From Demequina sp. (lineage in GTDB: Bacteria > Actinomycetota > Actinomycetes > Actinomycetales > Demequinaceae), in contig JANQAD010000001.1 of assembly GCA_024707205.1 (NCBI GenBank), positions 2,073,979 to 2,137,978 of the forward strand: a stretch of 64,000 bases of DNA, written 5' to 3'. Position 1 is the first letter of the stretch; every line of letters begins with the position of its first letter. Below the pieces are notes generated by a model, which made no database searches, had not been told where the DNA came from, and was given only the letters and a program-made list of their open reading frames with translations. Made by a program: the position numbers and the translations under genes. Below, piece after piece: positions 11,111-58,564 of the stretch.

Positions 11111-11806
11111 TTAGGCGGGAGTGACGACCACTCTGGACAACGAGGTCGGCGCTAGGTACGCCGCCGCCGTCGCGCCGAGGGCCGCACCCGCGAGCTGTGC
11201 TGCGATAAACCACAACGCCGAAGTCGGCGCAATGCCCGCGAAGGTGTCGGTGAACACGCGGGCGACGGTGACGGCAGGGTTGGCGAAGCTTGCCGAGGAC
11301 GTGAACCAGTACGCCGCGCCGATGTACGCACCCACGGCAGGTGCCACCCACGCGCCGCGTCCTGTCCGGACCATGACCACGATGAGGCCCACCAGGCCCG
11401 CTGTGGCCACAACCTCGGCGAGCACGGTGCCGACGCTTGCCCGGTCGGTCGTGGAGACCGCGAGGGGCGCGTGGAACATGGCGACGGCGACTGCCGTGCC
11501 GGCGATGCCTCCCGACACCTGCGCGGCGATGTAAGTCGCCTGGGTGCGGCGCTCGGCGGGTTCGAGGACTCGCGCGCTCGCGAGCGTCACGACGGGGTTG
11601 AAGTGCGCACCCGAGATCGGCTGTAGCACTGCGATCAAGACCGCCAACCCCAGCGCCGTGGCGAGGGAGTTCTCGAGCAGTTGTAGCCCGACGTCTTGGG
11701 GTGAAAGCCGAGACGCGGCGATGCCGGAGCCGACGACGACGGCGACGAGGCCCGCCGTGCCAAGCAACTCGGCGACGGCGCGGCGTGGAAGTGAGGCGGT
11801 GTCCAT
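11111..11806 (-). CDS. Aquaporin / aquaglyceroporin (MIP family) in arsenic cluster
   Basis: A 231-residue MIP-family channel with the two half-helix signatures, NPV at residues 70-72 (GAHFNPVVTL) and NPA at 176-178 (FANPAVTVAR), the conserved arginine at about 183, and six hydrophobic segments. The start ATG 11806 is chosen over an upstream codon at 11836. It is divergent from an ArsR-phosphatase fusion and shares an operator region with it. Known family precedent: in AqpS-type ars operons an aquaglyceroporin replaces an ArsB pump, so that arsenite made from arsenate leaves by diffusion. No ArsB/Acr3 is seen here, which fits that model. Confidence 0.9.
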   Translation of the reverse strand: MDTASLPRRAVAELLGTAGLVAVVVGSGIAASRLSPQDVGLQLLENSLATALGLAVLIAVLQPISGAHFNPVVTLASARVLEPAERRTQATYIAAQVSGGIAGTAVAVAMFHAPLAVSTTDRASVGTVLAEVVATAGLVGLIVVMVRTGRGAWVAPAVGAYIGAAYWFTSSASFANPAVTVARVFTDTFAGIAPTSALWFIAAQLAGAALGATAAAYLAPTSLSRVVVTPA

Positions 11807-11818
11807 GGTGGACGCATC

Positions 11819-11866
11819 TTGACAGACCCAGAACACTCAGTCAATATTGACTCAATCATGATTGAG
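11819..11866. promoter_or_regulatory. Divergent ars promoter and ArsR operator
   Basis: A consensus -35 TTGACA (11819-11824) precedes two dyads, TCAATATTGA (11841-11850) and CTCAATCATGATTGAG (11851-11866). The ATTGA/TCAAT dyad is typical of ArsR-family operators. The second covers the ATG at 11858, so binding would block transcription of the fusion gene and probably the aquaporin gene. Confidence 0.6.
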
Positions 11867-12538
11867 CAACTGACGCTAGAGACTCGCGCGGCGCGGCACT
11901 CCGCTCTCGCCGAGCCGACCCGCCTGCGCATCGTGGACCTGCTCCAACTCGGAGACGCCTCGCCCGCCCTCTTGCAGCGTCACCTCGGCATTTCATCGAA
12001 CCTGCTGGCGCACCACCTCGCCCAACTGGCCGACGCGGGGATCATCGCGCGGCACCGCTCCGAAGGCGACCGCCGACGCACCTACATTCGGCTCGTGCCG
12101 GGCACGCTGGATTTCCTTGGGGGAGCGCCGACGCTAGCTGCCGAGCGGGTGCTGTTCGTCTGCACAGGCAACTCGGCGCGCTCTCAACTCGCGGCCGCAC
12201 TATGGAGCCAGGCGAGCGACGTCCCCGCACTGTCCGCAGGCACCCACCCCGCGCCCGGTGTTTCCCCGGGAGCCGTCGCTGTCGCCGAGCGCCACGGGCT
12301 ATCCCTCGCCGACGCCCGTCCCCGTCGCATCGCCGACGTAACCACCGGAGGCGAACTGATCGTGACCGTGTGCGACTCGGCATTCGAGGAAATCGGCGAT
12401 GATGCACGGCTCCACTGGTCTATCGGCGACCCCGTACCCCTCGGCTCCCAGCGCGCGTTCGATGAGGCCTTCGCGCAGATCGCCGCCCGCGTAGAACAAC
12501 TTGCCCCACACGTCACCAAGGAAGGCACCCCAACATGA
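11858..12538 (+). CDS. ArsR repressor fused to LMW-phosphatase/arsenate reductase domain
   Basis: A 226-residue fusion. Residues 10-82 form an ArsR-type winged helix (EPTRLRIVDLLQLGD, LLQRHLGISSNLLAHHLAQL). Residues 96-220 form a low-molecular-weight phosphatase domain with the P-loop C102-TGNSA-R108 followed by SQLAAALW, and a DPVPLGS motif near the general-acid region. Such fusions occur in actinobacterial ars operons and may couple sensing with arsenate reduction. The ATG at 11858 is preferred: a TTG at 11819 would place the operator inside the gene. The next gene overlaps by ATGA. Confidence 0.88.
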   Translation: MIEQLTLETRAARHSALAEPTRLRIVDLLQLGDASPALLQRHLGISSNLLAHHLAQLADAGIIARHRSEGDRRRTYIRLVPGTLDFLGGAPTLAAERVLFVCTGNSARSQLAAALWSQASDVPALSAGTHPAPGVSPGAVAVAERHGLSLADARPRRIADVTTGGELIVTVCDSAFEEIGDDARLHWSIGDPVPLGSQRAFDEAFAQIAARVEQLAPHVTKEGTPT

Positions 12539-13179
12539 CCACCGACCAGACTCCCAGCATCGCCGTCCACTTCGAACGGGACCTCACCGACATCACCGAC
12601 CGCCTGCACAACGAGTTCGCGGGCCTCGCGCCCGACTTCATCGCCGGCATCGTCCGCTCCTCCTACGAGGAACTTGCCTCGCGCGCGACCGTGACCACGT
12701 TCGTCCCCACCCTGACGGAGCGGTTCGCCAGACAGCGCCTCACGGCACTAGAGATGGTCGAGGGCGACAAGGCGACCGTGCCGACCGTCCTGTTCCTCTG
12801 CATCCACAACGCAGGGCGCTCGCAGATGGCCCTTGGGTTTTTCGAGCACCACGCCCAGGGTCGCGCCATCGCGTGGTCGGGCGGCTCGGAGCCGGGCGAC
12901 AAGGTCAACCCGTCCGCTGTCGAGGCGATGGCCGAGCGCGGCATCGACATCTCTGGCGCGTACCCCAAGCCCTGGACCACTGAGATCCTCCGCGCGGCCG
13001 ACGTCGTCATCACCATGGGATGCGGCGACACCTGCCCGTATTACCCCGGCAAGCGCTACGAGGACTGGGTTCTCGAGGACCCCGCTGGCCGGGGCGTCGA
13101 CGCCGTGCGACCCATCCGCGATGACATCGAACGCCGCGTGCTCGAACTGCTCGGGTCGCTCGGAGTTGCCGCAGCCTGA
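12535..13179 (+). CDS. arsC: Arsenate reductase ArsC, LMW-phosphatase type with N-terminal helical domain
   Basis: A 214-residue arsenate reductase. Residues 14-75 form a three-helix domain (FERDLTDITDRLHNEFAG ... LTERFARQRL) found in actinobacterial ArsC proteins that use mycothiol/mycoredoxin. The catalytic P-loop is C89-IHNAG-R95 followed by SQMALGFFEHHA. The later motif TMGCGDTCPYYPGKRYEDW contains the cysteines typical of this group, and DPAGRGVDAVRPIRDDI closes the active site. It would reduce arsenate to arsenite in the cytoplasm. It is coupled to the preceding ArsR fusion (ATGA overlap at 12535). Confidence 0.93.
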   Translation: MTTDQTPSIAVHFERDLTDITDRLHNEFAGLAPDFIAGIVRSSYEELASRATVTTFVPTLTERFARQRLTALEMVEGDKATVPTVLFLCIHNAGRSQMALGFFEHHAQGRAIAWSGGSEPGDKVNPSAVEAMAERGIDISGAYPKPWTTEILRAADVVITMGCGDTCPYYPGKRYEDWVLEDPAGRGVDAVRPIRDDIERRVLELLGSLGVAAA

Positions 13180-13181
13180 CC

Positions 13182-13532
13182 CTATGGGGCGACGAGCAGC
13201 GACGACACCTGGCCGAGTGTTTCCGGCACGAGCCGGTAGTACGCCCACGTGCCTCGCTTGGAGCGCGTCAGGAAGCCTGCGTCGGTCAGCACCTTGAGGT
13301 GATGCGAGACGGTGGGCTGGGAGAGTCCGATCGACTCGGTCAGGTCGCACACGCATGCCTCGTCGTCGTCGTGGGCCGCGACCATCGACAGCAACCGGAG
13401 ACGTGCGGGGTCGGCGAGCGCTTTGAGAGCGCGGGCCAGCATGTCGGCGTCCTGGCCACTCATGGCGTCCCCAGTCGCGACGGTGCAGCAAGCGTCGAGC
13501 TGGATGACGGGAAGCAGTTCACGCGTGGGCAT
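13182..13532 (-). CDS. ArsR-family metalloregulator
   Basis: A 116-residue repressor starting at ATG 13532 with GAGGATG upstream. It has the ArsR winged helix (LKALADPARLRLLSMV, SIGLSQPTVSHHLKVLTDAG). Candidate metalloid ligands are C60 and C62 in ACVCDLTE, the classic alpha-3 site of arsenite sensors, plus an N-terminal C15-C16 pair. It is convergent with arsC, with only 2 bp between the stops. It is divergent from the cysteine-rich micro-ORF at 13631, and the operator between them suggests it controls itself and that peptide. Confidence 0.9.
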   Translation of the reverse strand: MPTRELLPVIQLDACCTVATGDAMSGQDADMLARALKALADPARLRLLSMVAAHDDDEACVCDLTESIGLSQPTVSHHLKVLTDAGFLTRSKRGTWAYYRLVPETLGQVSSLLVAP

Positions 13533-13550: not shown

Positions 13551-13606
13551 ATATTGACAGGCGTCGATATAGCCAGGCAGACTGCACGCATCGATATCCA
13601 TCGATG
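13551..13606. promoter_or_regulatory. ArsR-type operators between arsR and the cysteine-rich peptide
   Basis: ATATTGACAGGCGTCGATAT (13551-13570) is an imperfect inverted repeat of the ArsR kind. CATCGATATCCATCGATG (13589-13606) contains two ATCGAT palindromes as direct repeats. Both lie between divergent starts at 13532 and 13631. Confidence 0.5.
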
Positions 13607-13630
13607 TTCATCAATGGAAGGAGGACGGCC

Positions 13631-13672
13631 ATGTGTAACGACACCGGTTGTTGCCCGCCCGGCTGCTGCTGA
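13631..13672 (+). CDS. 13-residue cysteine-rich micro-ORF
   Basis: ATG 13631 opens MCNDTGCCPPGCC and stops at TGA 13670-13672. Five of the 13 residues are cysteine (C2, C7, C8, C12, C13), with two CC pairs separated by PPG. A consensus AAGGAGG (13618-13624) lies 6 nt before the ATG, an unusually good ribosome site for this window. It is flanked by an ArsR repressor (divergent) and a CmtR repressor downstream. It could be a metal(loid)-binding peptide, or a cysteine/metal-responsive leader whose translation affects downstream expression. The sequence shows only the ORF; the roles are inference. Confidence 0.55.
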   Translation: MCNDTGCCPPGCC

Positions 13673-13794
13673 CGCCGCCAAGCCGCTCCTGAGTGCACCA
13701 GGGGCGGCTCCGCAAGACCTCGAAAGGCAATTGAGACCTTGGCGTCAGCGGCGACCACAGCGTCGTCCCGCAGTCGACGAAGCCCACTCCTCAA

Positions 13795-13818
13795 TTGATA
13801 CAGCAAAGGCTGTATTAT
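13795..13818 (+). promoter_or_regulatory. CmtR promoter/operator
   Basis: The dyad ATACAGC (13798-13804) / GCTGTAT (13809-13815) overlaps a strong -10 box TATTAT (13813-13818), which ends 6 nt before ATG 13825. A leaderless, self-repressed promoter is likely. Confidence 0.6.
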
Positions 13819-13824
13819 CGCGTC

Positions 13825-14154
13825 ATGCCCGTCGCCACTCTGGCCCATGCGAGCGCCTTGGCTCGTCTCGGACACGCGTTGTCTGACGACACGCGGACGC
13901 GCATCCTGTTGGCCCTGAGGGATGCGCCAAGCTATCCGTCCGAGCTTGCGGAGGCGCTCGACGTCTCCCGTCAAGTGATGTCCAACCAGCTCGCATGCTT
14001 GCGAGGATGCGGCCTCGTCACAGCGGAGGCCGAGGGGCGGCGCACTCAGTATCGGTTGGCGGACCCGGCAATCTCCCACGCGCTGGGCGACATGCTCGGC
14101 CTCGTACTCACGGTCGACCCTGCCTGCTGCGGACCAGATTGCACATGCTCATGA
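13825..14154 (+). CDS. cmtR: CmtR-type ArsR/SmtB metal sensor
   Basis: A 109-residue winged-helix repressor. Cysteines C58 and C62 fall in the recognition helix (VMSNQLACLRGCGLVT), and a C-terminal cluster C101, C102, C106 and C108 ends the protein (CCGPDCTCS). Known for mycobacterial CmtR: Cd(II)/Pb(II) is bound by C57, C61 and C102, almost the same positions. It starts at ATG 13825 next to a leaderless-type -10 box. It overlaps the first CDF transporter by ATGA, so cadmium/lead relief of repression would directly induce export. Confidence 0.92.
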   Translation: MPVATLAHASALARLGHALSDDTRTRILLALRDAPSYPSELAEALDVSRQVMSNQLACLRGCGLVTAEAEGRRTQYRLADPAISHALGDMLGLVLTVDPACCGPDCTCS

Positions 14155-14861
14155 GCGCCGTCATGCCGGGTGGTTCACCGCTCGACCCTGAGCGTCGGGC
14201 GGTGTTGCACCGCAGGGTGCGCTGGATCGTCGCATTCACGATCAGCTACAACGTGATCGAAGCAGTCATTGCCATCGTCGCCGGGACCAAGGCGTCATCC
14301 ACCGCGTTGATCGGCTTCGGTCTGGACTCAACCATCGAGGTCGCTTCCGCCGCGGCTGTCGCGTGGCAGTTCACCCGCAAAGACCCCGAGCGGTGGGAGA
14401 AGGTCACCGTTCGCGCCATCGCGGTCGCGTTCTTTGCTCTCGCCGCATACGTGACGGTTGACGCGGTGCTGGCGCTCACCGGTCAGGTCGAGGTGGAGCA
14501 CAGCCCGTTGGGGATCGCCATCACGGTCGCGAGCCTGGTCATCATGCCAGTGCTCGCTTGGGTCGAGACGCGAACAGGCCGTGAGCTCGGCTCGAGGTCC
14601 GTGCTGGCCGACGCGAAGCAACTGCTCCTTTGTGTCTACCTCTCAGGCACAGTCTTGCTCGGCCTGCTGGCCAATTCCCTGTTCGGATGGACCTGGGCGG
14701 ACTCCGTTGCCGCACTTGTCGTCGCCTACCTTGCGCTCCGCGAGGGCATCGAGGCGTGGAACGGGGACGTTGAGTCGCCCTTCGAGGTCTTCGAGGATCT
14801 TGAATCTGAGGCCGAGGACGCGGAGAGCGCACCCAGTGAGGCGACAGGGGCAGACGAGTGA
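14151..14861 (+). CDS. Cation diffusion facilitator-like transporter (TMEM163-type)
   Basis: A 236-residue membrane protein with about six hydrophobic segments (near residues 20-40, 48-64, 82-102, 112-132, 155-175, 180-195). The motif STALIGFGLDSTIEV carries the metal-binding aspartate position of the CDF family in the short TMEM163-like form. A strongly acidic tail (EVFEDLESEAEDAE) replaces the usual C-terminal domain. Start ATG 14151 overlaps the cmtR stop. It is the first of two exporters under CmtR. Substrate is likely Cd, Zn or Pb, inferred from the regulator. Confidence 0.85.
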   Translation: MSAVMPGGSPLDPERRAVLHRRVRWIVAFTISYNVIEAVIAIVAGTKASSTALIGFGLDSTIEVASAAAVAWQFTRKDPERWEKVTVRAIAVAFFALAAYVTVDAVLALTGQVEVEHSPLGIAITVASLVIMPVLAWVETRTGRELGSRSVLADAKQLLLCVYLSGTVLLGLLANSLFGWTWADSVAALVVAYLALREGIEAWNGDVESPFEVFEDLESEAEDAESAPSEATGADE

Positions 14862-15778
14862 GCGGCCCTGGTCACACCCATCAAGCAGCGAGCGAATCGC
14901 AAGGGCGCAGACTAAAAGTCGCGCTCGGCATCACCTCCACGATCCTGGTCGCAGAACTCATCGGCGCAGCGATCACGGGCTCCCTCGCGCTTCTCGTCGA
15001 TGCCGCACACATGGTCACCGACGCCGCTGGGCTAGCCCTGGCCGTTTTCGCCGCCTCGATATCCATGCGCCCAGCGACAGCACGACGCACCTGGGGCTAC
15101 CAGCGGGCCGAGGTGCTCGCGGCGCTCGCGCAATCCGCGTTGCTGCTCGCCGTAGGCGTCTACGTCGTCGTAGAAGGCATCAGGCGTCTCGCGAGTCCAC
15201 CGGAGATCGCCTCCGGCCAGCTCGTGTTCTTCGGGGTCGTAGGTCTCGTGGGAAATATCGCCTCGATGCTTGTCCTGGCGGGCCACCGCGACGCCAACTT
15301 CAACCTCCGCGCCGCATTCCTGGAGGTCGTCAACGACGCGCTTGGGTCCGTGGCAGTGATTGTCGCGGCGGTCGTGATTGCGGTCACCGGTTGGCTACAG
15401 GCGGATGCTGTCGCAGGCTTGCTCATCGGGGCGTTGATACTGCCTCGAGCACTCAAGCTCTTGTGGCAGACGAGTTCGGTGCTCCTAGAGACCACGCCCA
15501 CTGGCCTAGACCTTGATGACGTGAGGAACCACCTGCTCGGAGTGGATCACGTGCGGGACGTCCACGACCTACACGCCTCGCTCATCGCCACCGGACTTCC
15601 CGTGTTGAGTGCCCATGTGGTGGTCGACGACGCGTGCTTCGGCGACGGCCACGCCGGCGCAATCCTTCATGAGCTTCAGGAGTGCGTGGCCGAGCACTTC
15701 GATGTGCCAGTGGAACATTCGACGTTCCAGATTGAGCCCACTACCCACCGAGAGCGCGAACACCTCACTCACGACTAG
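14858..15778 (+). CDS. CzcD-type cation diffusion facilitator
   Basis: A 306-residue cation/proton antiporter. Six transmembrane segments include the metal site DAAHMVTD (about 43-50), with a second site in VNDALGS where HD is replaced by ND. A cytoplasmic CDF C-terminal domain follows (about 205-300), with HDLHASLIATGLPVLSAHVV and FQIEP. A short His-containing N-terminus (GHTHQ) could bind metal. GTG 14858 overlaps the stop of the preceding transporter gene, so cmtR and both exporters form one translationally coupled operon. Confidence 0.92.
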   Translation: MSGPGHTHQAASESQGRRLKVALGITSTILVAELIGAAITGSLALLVDAAHMVTDAAGLALAVFAASISMRPATARRTWGYQRAEVLAALAQSALLLAVGVYVVVEGIRRLASPPEIASGQLVFFGVVGLVGNIASMLVLAGHRDANFNLRAAFLEVVNDALGSVAVIVAAVVIAVTGWLQADAVAGLLIGALILPRALKLLWQTSSVLLETTPTGLDLDDVRNHLLGVDHVRDVHDLHASLIATGLPVLSAHVVVDDACFGDGHAGAILHELQECVAEHFDVPVEHSTFQIEPTTHREREHLTHD

Positions 15779-57004: not shown

Positions 57005-58564
57005 GTGACGCCGATCGAGATCACCTTCATCATCTTGGGGCTCGCGGTGGTTGCGTTCATGACCGGCAGAATTCCGATCGCGATCGTCGCCGTCGGCGTG
57101 TCCGTCGCCCTGTGGGCTACCGGGGTGCTCGAGCTCAACCAGGCTCTCGCCGGCTTTGGCGATCCCACGGTGATCTTCATCGCGAGCCTGTTCATCGTCA
57201 GCGACGCCCTCGATGCGACCGGCGTGACCGCGTGGGCGGGGCAGCAGGCCGTCACGCGGGGCGGCACCAAACGCGTCCCGCTGCTCATCACGGTCAGCCT
57301 GCTCGTTGCTCTGCTCACCGCCCTGATCTCGGTGAACGGCGCGGTCGCGGCCCTGGTGCCGCTCGTCGTGGTCGTCGCCGTTCGCGCGGGCCTTTCGCCC
57401 TCGCAGCTGCTCATGCCCATGGCGTTCGCGGCGCACGCGGGATCCCTGCTTGCGCTGACCGGAACTCCGGTCAACATCATCGTGTCCGAGGCGGCGGTCG
57501 ATGCCGGCGAGCGGCCCTTCGGCTACGTCGAGTTCGCGTGGGTCGGCATCCCGCTCGTCGTGGGCTCGATCCTCATCATGGCGCTGTTCGGCGGCAAGCT
57601 CTTGCCGCACCACAACCCGGCCGAGCTGCCTGCGGACATCGCGGCGCTCACGCTTGCGCTGCGGGCGGAGTACGTCGTTCCCGACGAGCAGGAGCTCATC
57701 GGCACGGTCAAGGGCGTGACGGAGGTGGTGATCCCGCCGCGCTCCGAGCTCATCGGCACGCATCTCTTCGCGGGGCAGGCGACGCCATCCGGCGACCTCG
57801 TGGTGCTCGGCGTCAACCGGGGAGGCGAGCCCGTTGACGGCCCCAGCGCCGTGCTCGCGGCCGGCGATTCCGTGCTCGTGCGCGGGACGTGGGCGCACCT
57901 GGAGCAGCACACGTCCGGCCCAGACGTTCTCGTGGTCAACGACCCCGTCAGCCTGCGCAAGTCGGTCCCGCTGGGCCCGGGAGCCAAGCGCGCGATCGTC
58001 ATCCTCGTGGCGATGGTGCTGCTGCTCGTCACCAACGCGGTGCCGCCCGTGATGGCGGGCCTGCTCGCCGCCGGCGCCGTCATCCTCTCGGGTGTCTTCA
58101 CGCCCCTCCGCGCGTACAAGGCGGTGCAGTGGACCACCGTGCTGCTCGTCGCCGGCATGATTCCGCTGTCCACGGCCTTCACCTCAACGGGAGCCGCGGA
58201 CCTCATCGCGACCCACCTGATGGACGCCATCGGCAACGCCCCCGCGCAGGTGGCGCTGCTCGCTATCTGCCTGCTCACCATGGTGCTCGGCCAGCTCATC
58301 TCCAACATGGCCACCGTGCTCATCATGCTGCCTATCTCGGTGGCGCTCGCCCACGACCTGAACCTGTCCGTGCTCCCGTTCCTGATGGCGCTCACGGTCG
58401 CGGGGGCAGCGGCCTTCCTGACGCCCGTCGCGACCCCGGCGAACACGATGATCTATGAGCCGGGCAACTACAAGTTCGGCGATTACTGGAAGCTCGGCCT
58501 CCCTTTGCTCTTGCTGTTCCTCGCAGTCGCAGTGCTGCTCGTGCCGGTCATCTGGCCCTTCTAG
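57005..58564 (+). CDS. SLC13/ArsB-NhaD-type permease with RCK_C domains
   Basis: A 519-residue anion or sodium-coupled carrier with about 10-11 helices in two halves. Each half carries the family's inverted hairpin motif (SVNGAVAALVPLVVVVAVRA with LTGTPVNIIV; ISNMATVLIMLPISVALAHD with TPVATPANTMIYEPG). A cytoplasmic insert (about 210-310, EVVIPPRSELIGTHLFAGQA) is a TrkA-C/RCK_C regulatory domain. The substrate could be sulfate, dicarboxylates or arsenite. It is followed 9 bp later by a second transporter-like gene. Confidence 0.88.
   Translation: MTPIEITFIILGLAVVAFMTGRIPIAIVAVGVSVALWATGVLELNQALAGFGDPTVIFIASLFIVSDALDATGVTAWAGQQAVTRGGTKRVPLLITVSLLVALLTALISVNGAVAALVPLVVVVAVRAGLSPSQLLMPMAFAAHAGSLLALTGTPVNIIVSEAAVDAGERPFGYVEFAWVGIPLVVGSILIMALFGGKLLPHHNPAELPADIAALTLALRAEYVVPDEQELIGTVKGVTEVVIPPRSELIGTHLFAGQATPSGDLVVLGVNRGGEPVDGPSAVLAAGDSVLVRGTWAHLEQHTSGPDVLVVNDPVSLRKSVPLGPGAKRAIVILVAMVLLLVTNAVPPVMAGLLAAGAVILSGVFTPLRAYKAVQWTTVLLVAGMIPLSTAFTSTGAADLIATHLMDAIGNAPAQVALLAICLLTMVLGQLISNMATVLIMLPISVALAHDLNLSVLPFLMALTVAGAAAFLTPVATPANTMIYEPGNYKFGDYWKLGLPLLLLFLAVAVLLVPVIWPF

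Follow-up and report, generated by a model that had tools for sequence, protein, structure and literature searches.

A very small cysteine-rich gene divergent from arsR in Demequina sp. and its relatives, which probably encode arsenic-binding peptides

Between an arsR gene and a cmtR-like regulator gene in Demequina sp. lies an open reading frame of only 13 codons, five of them for cysteine. The locus raises the question of whether so short a reading frame is a gene at all and, if it is, whether it works through the peptide it encodes or through the act of its translation.

The micro-ORF, its surroundings and a second copy in the host

Direct reading of the window (the whole stretch of 64,000 nucleotides that was analysed) places the micro-ORF at 13631-13672 on the forward strand, from the ATG at 13631-13633 to the stop codon TGA at 13670-13672, with MCNDTGCCPPGCC as the encoded product. 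The Shine-Dalgarno (SD) sequence AAGGAGG (13618-13624, forward strand) is separated from the ATG by the 6-nt spacer ACGGCC, so that the preliminary description of this DNA, which had reported a 13-residue ORF with five cysteines and this SD 6 nt upstream, was accurate. No other ORF of up to 30 residues on either strand of the window combines at least five cysteines with a strong SD; dinucleotide shuffling of the window, repeated 20 times, produced one such ORF in total. That it is more than a product of chance follows mainly from its recurrence, since an equivalent ORF was found in 28 of the 99 Microbacteriaceae arsR loci scanned. The micro-ORF is real, is most likely a very small protein-coding gene, and belongs to a family.

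No ORF comes before it on the divergent side of arsR, which occupies 13182-13532 on the reverse strand and encodes an ArsR/SmtB metalloregulator (HTH_5, E 2e-15; HTH_metalloreg, 96.7 bits, above the cut-off of 55; Rv2640c-family model, 89.3 bits, under the cut-off of 155). A promoter-like pair on the forward strand (13554-13583), TTGACA at 13554-13559 and CAGACT at 13578-13583, is spaced by 18 nt and holds a GTCGAT half site (13563-13568) within this spacer; it was absent from the output of a generic promoter scan of the window. The repeats ATCGAT-NNNN-ATCGAT-NNNN-ATCAAT (13590-13615), detected by motif scan, form two overlapping ArsR-type sites, ATCGATATCCATCGAT at 13590-13605 and a further one at 13600-13615, to which ArsR would bind; with the half site, they correspond to the operators previously placed beside the start of the micro-ORF. 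The element ATCGAT-NNNN-ATCGAT is not rare on its own (2 matches against 1.5 expected, two mismatches being allowed). Three plasmid-borne arsR loci (Rathayibacter, Clavibacter and Amnibacterium) have the same layout of promoter and operator; there, TTGAC and the operator sites lie ahead of a gene for an oxidoreductase or ACR3, and a micro-ORF was not seen.

Downstream, a cmtR-like gene (13825-14154, forward strand, assigned by family models) begins 152 nt past the micro-ORF and reads in the same direction, behind an inverted repeat of its own (ATACAGC-AAAG-GCTGTAT, 13798-13815), which is probably an operator. It is followed by genes for two CDF transporters, assigned by family models as well (14151-14861 and 14858-15778, forward strand). 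The ORF at 13795-14154 scored 118.7 bits with the CmtR model, under its cut-off of 150; the cmtR operon announced in the preliminary description is right as a neighbour. The operon probably constitutes a separate transcription unit lying outside the micro-ORF module, and its connection with the micro-ORF is one of neighbourhood only; the suggested link to cadmium and lead found no support, the relatives found through the peptide or its motif being situated next to arsR.

A second divergent arsR module is present in the host genome (G000:C1 2,513,783-2,514,259; loci L128 and L258). It consists of an arsR that appears frameshifted because it reads in two frames, a divergent micro-ORF encoding MLNCDDGCCPPGCCS, a 10-bp hairpin 9 nt past the stop codon, and arsC (low-molecular-weight phosphatase fold). 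This second peptide ends in CCS, unlike the window copy with its Cys-Cys-stop end. Aligned over 454 positions, the two modules are 67% identical in DNA sequence and are therefore not the outcome of a recent duplication. Among 47 genomes of the family, codings for CCPPGCC were confined to these two host copies, the exact motif being absent from the other 46.

Relatives at arsR loci and the distribution of CCPPGCC

The arsR loci scanned (n = 142) were searched on the divergent side for a short SD-led ORF with at least four cysteines, the CCPPGCC motif not being required. A Cys-rich ORF of 17-27 residues stood first after the operator in the 28 Microbacteriaceae loci mentioned above, at an offset of 164-189 nt in 27 of them and of 249 nt in one, and five further Microbacteriaceae loci had such an ORF 20-40 nt past the stop codon of arsC. 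Per 142 loci, the controls gave 1.0 (shuffles) and 3 (opposite strand) for the first position, and 0.1 and 1, respectively, for the position behind arsC. The distribution is patchy, as 66 of the 99 Microbacteriaceae loci had no such ORF at either position, and none was found in 42 other arsR loci (27 from the genus of the window, many of these coding for distant paralogues of ArsR, and 15 from other families). The 99 loci represent 123 Microbacteriaceae matches minus 27 of the weaker ones and the short L136, plus four Microbacteriaceae loci from another arsR search, of which only the top matches entered the scan. The 142-locus scan further excludes the short L037 as well as L016 and L024, whose orientation was not recognised, while L020 passed it and was not counted, as its ORF lies in a coding region and has no CC end. 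The family in question (f19) is Microbacteriaceae, to which Agrococcus belongs, one of its genomes (G813) being identical over 3078 bases to an Agrococcus contig.

Searches led by the peptide pointed to the same genomic setting. In genus g162, 27 matches were obtained, of which the 16 strong ones (E 0.0011 or better), from 15 of 28 genomes, gave the ORF, unlike the 11 weaker ones; arsR lay divergently upstream in all 16. Genus g87 showed the same arrangement for 8 of 9 matches, the exception being L255. Conservation of the ORF in related islands, which the preliminary description had named as a check, was accordingly observed, relatives being present in many genomes beside arsR. A class-wide profile search of 394 genomes returned one weak match without a short Cys-rich ORF, and this search was insensitive because it missed the ORF of the window itself. 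Against plasmids, blastn with the micro-ORF stretch (E up to 10) returned at least 50 records, the matches listed having E values of 2 or worse, and tblastn with one 22-residue relative gave no match. Viral contigs contained ten CCPPGCC+TRR stretches (a pattern in which TRR admits Trp besides stop), none of which resembled an SD-led micro-ORF in the frames inspected.

The motif CCPPGCC followed by a stop codon was found in 56 stretches of genome contigs, five of which (L075, L078, L082, L091 and L098) are micro-ORFs divergent from arsR, all actinobacterial. They include MRIDGPCCPPGCC and MRVDDPCCPPDCCPPGCC from two actinobacterial metagenome-assembled genomes (MAGs) and 26-residue peptides such as MDTNTLCIELGCPPELDQECCPPGCC from two Microbacterium genomes and one Agrococcus. 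Thirteen others form the C-termini of Bacteroidota ArsM proteins, recognised by sequence motif (L074, L084, L085, L087, L090, L096, L101, L107, L112, L114, L115, L123 and L127), with L084 being the one confirmed by a family model (arsenite methyltransferase, 370 bits). One more, from a Saprospiraceae MAG (L093:5007-5473), ends a 26-residue ORF, MLLTILMGILGFACSCGTECCPPGCC, located 68 nt behind an ArsR-family gene. In total, 19 of the 56 stretches stand in an arsenic or ArsR-family context, the other 37 being without a shown arsenic context. Two Planctomycetota DUF6428 proteins (L099:1355-1810 and L113), which end in NACCPPGCC-stop, were considered and not counted as arsenic context because their neighbours are aroB-like and succinate dehydrogenase-like rather than ars genes. 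As a separate observation, the Saprospiraceae product may be membrane-anchored.

Taken with the window copy and the five copies found by pattern, which lie outside the 99 and the 142 loci, the 28 Microbacteriaceae ORFs make up a set of 34 first-position peptides, 33 of them distinct, with 13-27 residues and 4-10 cysteines. All 34 end in Cys-Cys-stop, a feature that was no selection criterion for 29 of them, the remaining five having come from the CCPPGCC-stop pattern; at least two CC pairs are present in 31. TTGAC occurs upstream of 32 of the 34 micro-ORFs and degenerate ATCGAT-like sites upstream of all of them. The next gene is arsC in 20 of the 28 Microbacteriaceae loci. In the MAG copies L075 and L082, the divergent arsR, the micro-ORF and a hairpin are followed by a convergent gene for tRNA pseudouridine synthase. 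The features of the family are hence an arsR-divergent promoter, an SD, a length of 13-27 residues, a Cys-Cys-stop end and a hairpin, and the window copy has all five. These very small arsenic-regulated genes, present in several bacteria, appear to form a family that has not been described before. Six relatives of 21-27 residues matched no NCBIfam family and no Pfam family above its cut-off, the only Pfam match being Keratin_B2_2 (E 0.16, below its cut-off). Literature searches, including one for the string CCPPGCC, gave no description of such peptides, in agreement with the preliminary description, which had known of none; subscription literature was mostly outside these searches.

Coding selection and the hairpin past the stop codon

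Purifying selection of a protein-coding kind is shown for one subfamily, that of genus g162, and not for the window's own sequence. Among 13 distinct g162 sequences, pN/pS was 0.255, compared with 1.71 and 1.72 in the other two frames, and none of 200 column shuffles gave a value as low; since the sequences are related, the pairs compared are not independent. The set comprised the 13 distinct sequences among 14 of equal length out of 16, the shorter L234 and L239 being left out. Of 22 positions each, 6 first, 5 second and 14 third codon positions were variable, and residues besides cysteine are kept. A first set of nine loci had given 0.264. In the CPPEL subfamily (seven sequences, five of genus g87), pN/pS was 0.97 with pS only 0.18, which is too little divergence to judge; this value reflects either that or a constraint at the RNA level. 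There the DNA stretch GAGCTGGGCTGCCCGCCCGAGCTC is unchanged in five of the seven sequences (L131, L137, L142, L205 and L091), possibly as an RNA hairpin inside the ORF. The preliminary description had also proposed to compare synonymous with non-synonymous changes, and this comparison spoke for coding in g162, the CPPEL sequences being too similar to speak either way.

A GC hairpin, AGCCGCUCCUG-AGUGCAC-CAGGGGCGGCU (13681-13709, forward strand), begins 8 nt past the stop codon of the window micro-ORF; it has a folding z of -2.43 and no U-tract, and a scan for canonical terminators found none. Its loop element is found again in L078, L098 and L133 and, with one base different, in L142. Across these five hairpins, which were picked for their common loop with the window's included and the shorter-loop L137 left out, 55 of 55 pair cells are kept and 3 of 11 pairs have changed on both sides; the AGTGCAC-type hairpin of L133 has a stronger competitor. 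More generally, the best hairpin within the next 110 nt begins no more than 9 nt past the stop codon in 26 of the 34 loci, in a scan run without a shuffle control. The 60 nt past the stop codon fold with a mean z of -2.8 (below -2 in 25 of 34), compared with -1.9 (17 of 34) for the 60 nt upstream that hold the operator repeats, and because this operator-bearing stretch folds too, the evidence from post-stop folding is modest. The hairpin signal is absent past the stop codon in L149 and L160, and the tails inspected had no U-tract. One report (PMC4562236) describes a hairpin inside the ars operon of Bacillus CDB3 that lowers the downstream transcript, a precedent for partial termination.

Proposed function and competing explanations

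The explanation that fits best, and that is held to be rather more probable than all the others, is that of an arsenite-induced micropeptide that binds As(III) in trans; judged from sequence, the peptides of the family are probably made to bind arsenic. Arsenite would free ArsR from the common operator, a transcript would begin about 40 nt upstream of the micro-ORF, and the strong SD would drive translation of the 13-residue peptide. Its paired cysteines (CC-PPG-CC, together with Cys2) could then bind As(III) in trans and sequester it, for instance as ArsC makes it, or pass it on, and the peptide would act in the manner of a minimal arsenic metallothionein or chaperone. Past the stop codon, the hairpin might terminate a short, abundant mRNA for the peptide or make it more stable, some read-through reaching arsC where that gene comes next. 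Induction by arsenite, the transcript start, the stability of the peptide, As(III) binding and the roles in resistance and of the hairpin are all predictions of this scheme. A product acting in trans is favoured because the modules of L075 and L082 end at a hairpin and a convergent gene, because the ORF lies behind arsC in five loci, and because residues other than cysteine are kept in the subfamily tested. The chemistry points to As(III) because CCPPGCC-stop also ends ArsM in the 13 Bacteroidota loci and the Saprospiraceae ORF behind an ArsR-family gene. Against a trans-acting peptide counts that a chain of 13 residues may be short-lived.

The chief competitor is a cis-acting leader, in which ribosomes delayed at the two final Cys codons, as cysteine or thiols are depleted by arsenite, would disrupt the hairpin and allow read-through into arsC; the window copy would then be a relic without arsC or a controller of cmtR. 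The Cys-Cys-stop end of all 34 peptides and the close hairpin in 26 of these loci fit ribosome stalling geometrically, arsC comes next in most of the first-position Microbacteriaceae loci, cysteine-responsive leaders of a comparable kind are reported from mycobacteria, and the codirectional cmtR of the window is compatible with control by read-through. However, L075 and L082 have nothing downstream to control because their next gene is convergent, and the five copies behind arsC also speak against a leader, although they could lead genes further on; so do the SD-led rather than leaderless start, the missing U-tract and the low pN/pS of g162. The leader alternative of the preliminary description is weakened by these two convergent loci, by the copies behind arsC and by the SD, and it is considered unlikely. 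Somewhat less likely again is a dual element, namely a functional peptide whose translation, in addition, adjusts how much transcription continues beyond the hairpin into arsC. Such a combination would account for amino-acid conservation in one subfamily together with the kept and doubly changed hairpin pairs in five sequences and the scarcity of synonymous change in CPPEL, but the folding signal is modest and the five covarying hairpins had been chosen beforehand for their loop, without L137.

It is improbable that the peptide serves another thiophilic metal (Cd, Pb or Zn) or forms a Cys-rich redox buffer with incidental ArsR control. The adjoining cmtR-CDF operon would suit that reading, but the position of the relatives beside arsR and the return of the motif as the tail of an arsenite methyltransferase do not. 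Least probable is that the ORF arose by chance or is a remnant left when an ars gene was deleted; in favour of this reading, most relatives lack the micro-ORF, and in the three plasmid relatives a matching promoter serves an oxidoreductase or ACR3 gene. Against it stand the recurrence, the selection in one subfamily, the second host copy and the shuffles; the remnant was rejected, as the N-termini of the three plasmid genes, compared by eye, do not resemble the peptide.

Returning to the As(III)-binding micropeptide, its nearest designed counterpart is the tetracysteine tag. CCPGCC is given as the minimal biarsenical-binding tag, of the form CCXXCC with a two-residue spacer (PMC6273389). In the FlAsH/CrAsH tag, as in the present peptide, a Pro-Gly turn is flanked by two pairs of cysteines, which in the tag bind arsenic; the tag was designed for biarsenical dyes, whereas the present motif belongs to a natural gene and has the three-residue spacer PPG. 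This likeness and the recurrence of CCPPGCC led to the proposal of an arsenite-induced As(III)-binding peptide. Compared with the Bacteroidota ArsM proteins, which carry CCPPGCC-stop as an enzyme tail, the peptide is free.

Bacterial metallothioneins such as MymT and SmtA are very small Cys-rich proteins that are controlled by metalloregulators and induced by toxic elements. The present peptides are likewise very small and Cys-rich, with regulator-controlled induction suggested by their operators, but they differ in their length of 13-27 residues, in the Cys-Cys-stop end of first-position members and in the ArsR-type operator. In mycobacteria, Canestrari and colleagues are said to have described in 2020 polycysteine leader ORFs that are leaderless and cysteine-responsive. 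As a class, polycysteine leaders have Cys codons near a downstream RNA element, as do the present ORFs (Cys-Cys-stop in 34 of 34, followed within 9 nt by a hairpin in 26), and both are short Cys-rich ORFs at the 5' end of an operon. In contrast to them, the present family is SD-led, with AAGGAGG and a predicted 5' UTR of about 40 nt in the window copy, possesses an ArsR-type operator, includes copies before a convergent gene or behind arsC, and keeps residues other than cysteine. The gene downstream is arsC in 20 of 28 loci and cmtR, 152 nt on, in the window, and there is no downstream operon gene in L075 and L082.

There is close to an even chance that arsenic-binding micropeptides of 13-27 residues are an unrecognised component of arsenic resistance and that CCPPGCC is a portable As(III)-binding C-terminal module, free or attached to ArsM, which would make it nature's equivalent of the FlAsH tag. 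Gene finders usually pass over reading frames of this size, and part of the well-studied ars machinery may for that reason have escaped notice. Should the peptides bind As(III), they would be among the smallest ribosomally made detoxification agents and would offer natural templates for sensing or adsorbing arsenic, and the chaperoning of free As(III) after reduction by ArsC in Actinomycetota would become testable. The copies before, behind and without arsC are natural experiments for separating a peptide function from a leader function.

As to other arsenic genes of the host, a search of its genome for ACR3 found none, and a match to the ArsB model at 57026-57478 of the window was marginal (23.3 bits, cut-off 22.2). 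The window also contains an aquaporin-family gene (11111-11806), a gene in which an ArsR-type HTH is fused to a low-molecular-weight phosphatase (ArsC-like) domain (11819-12538) and, directly after this fusion, a separate arsC-like gene (12535-13179).
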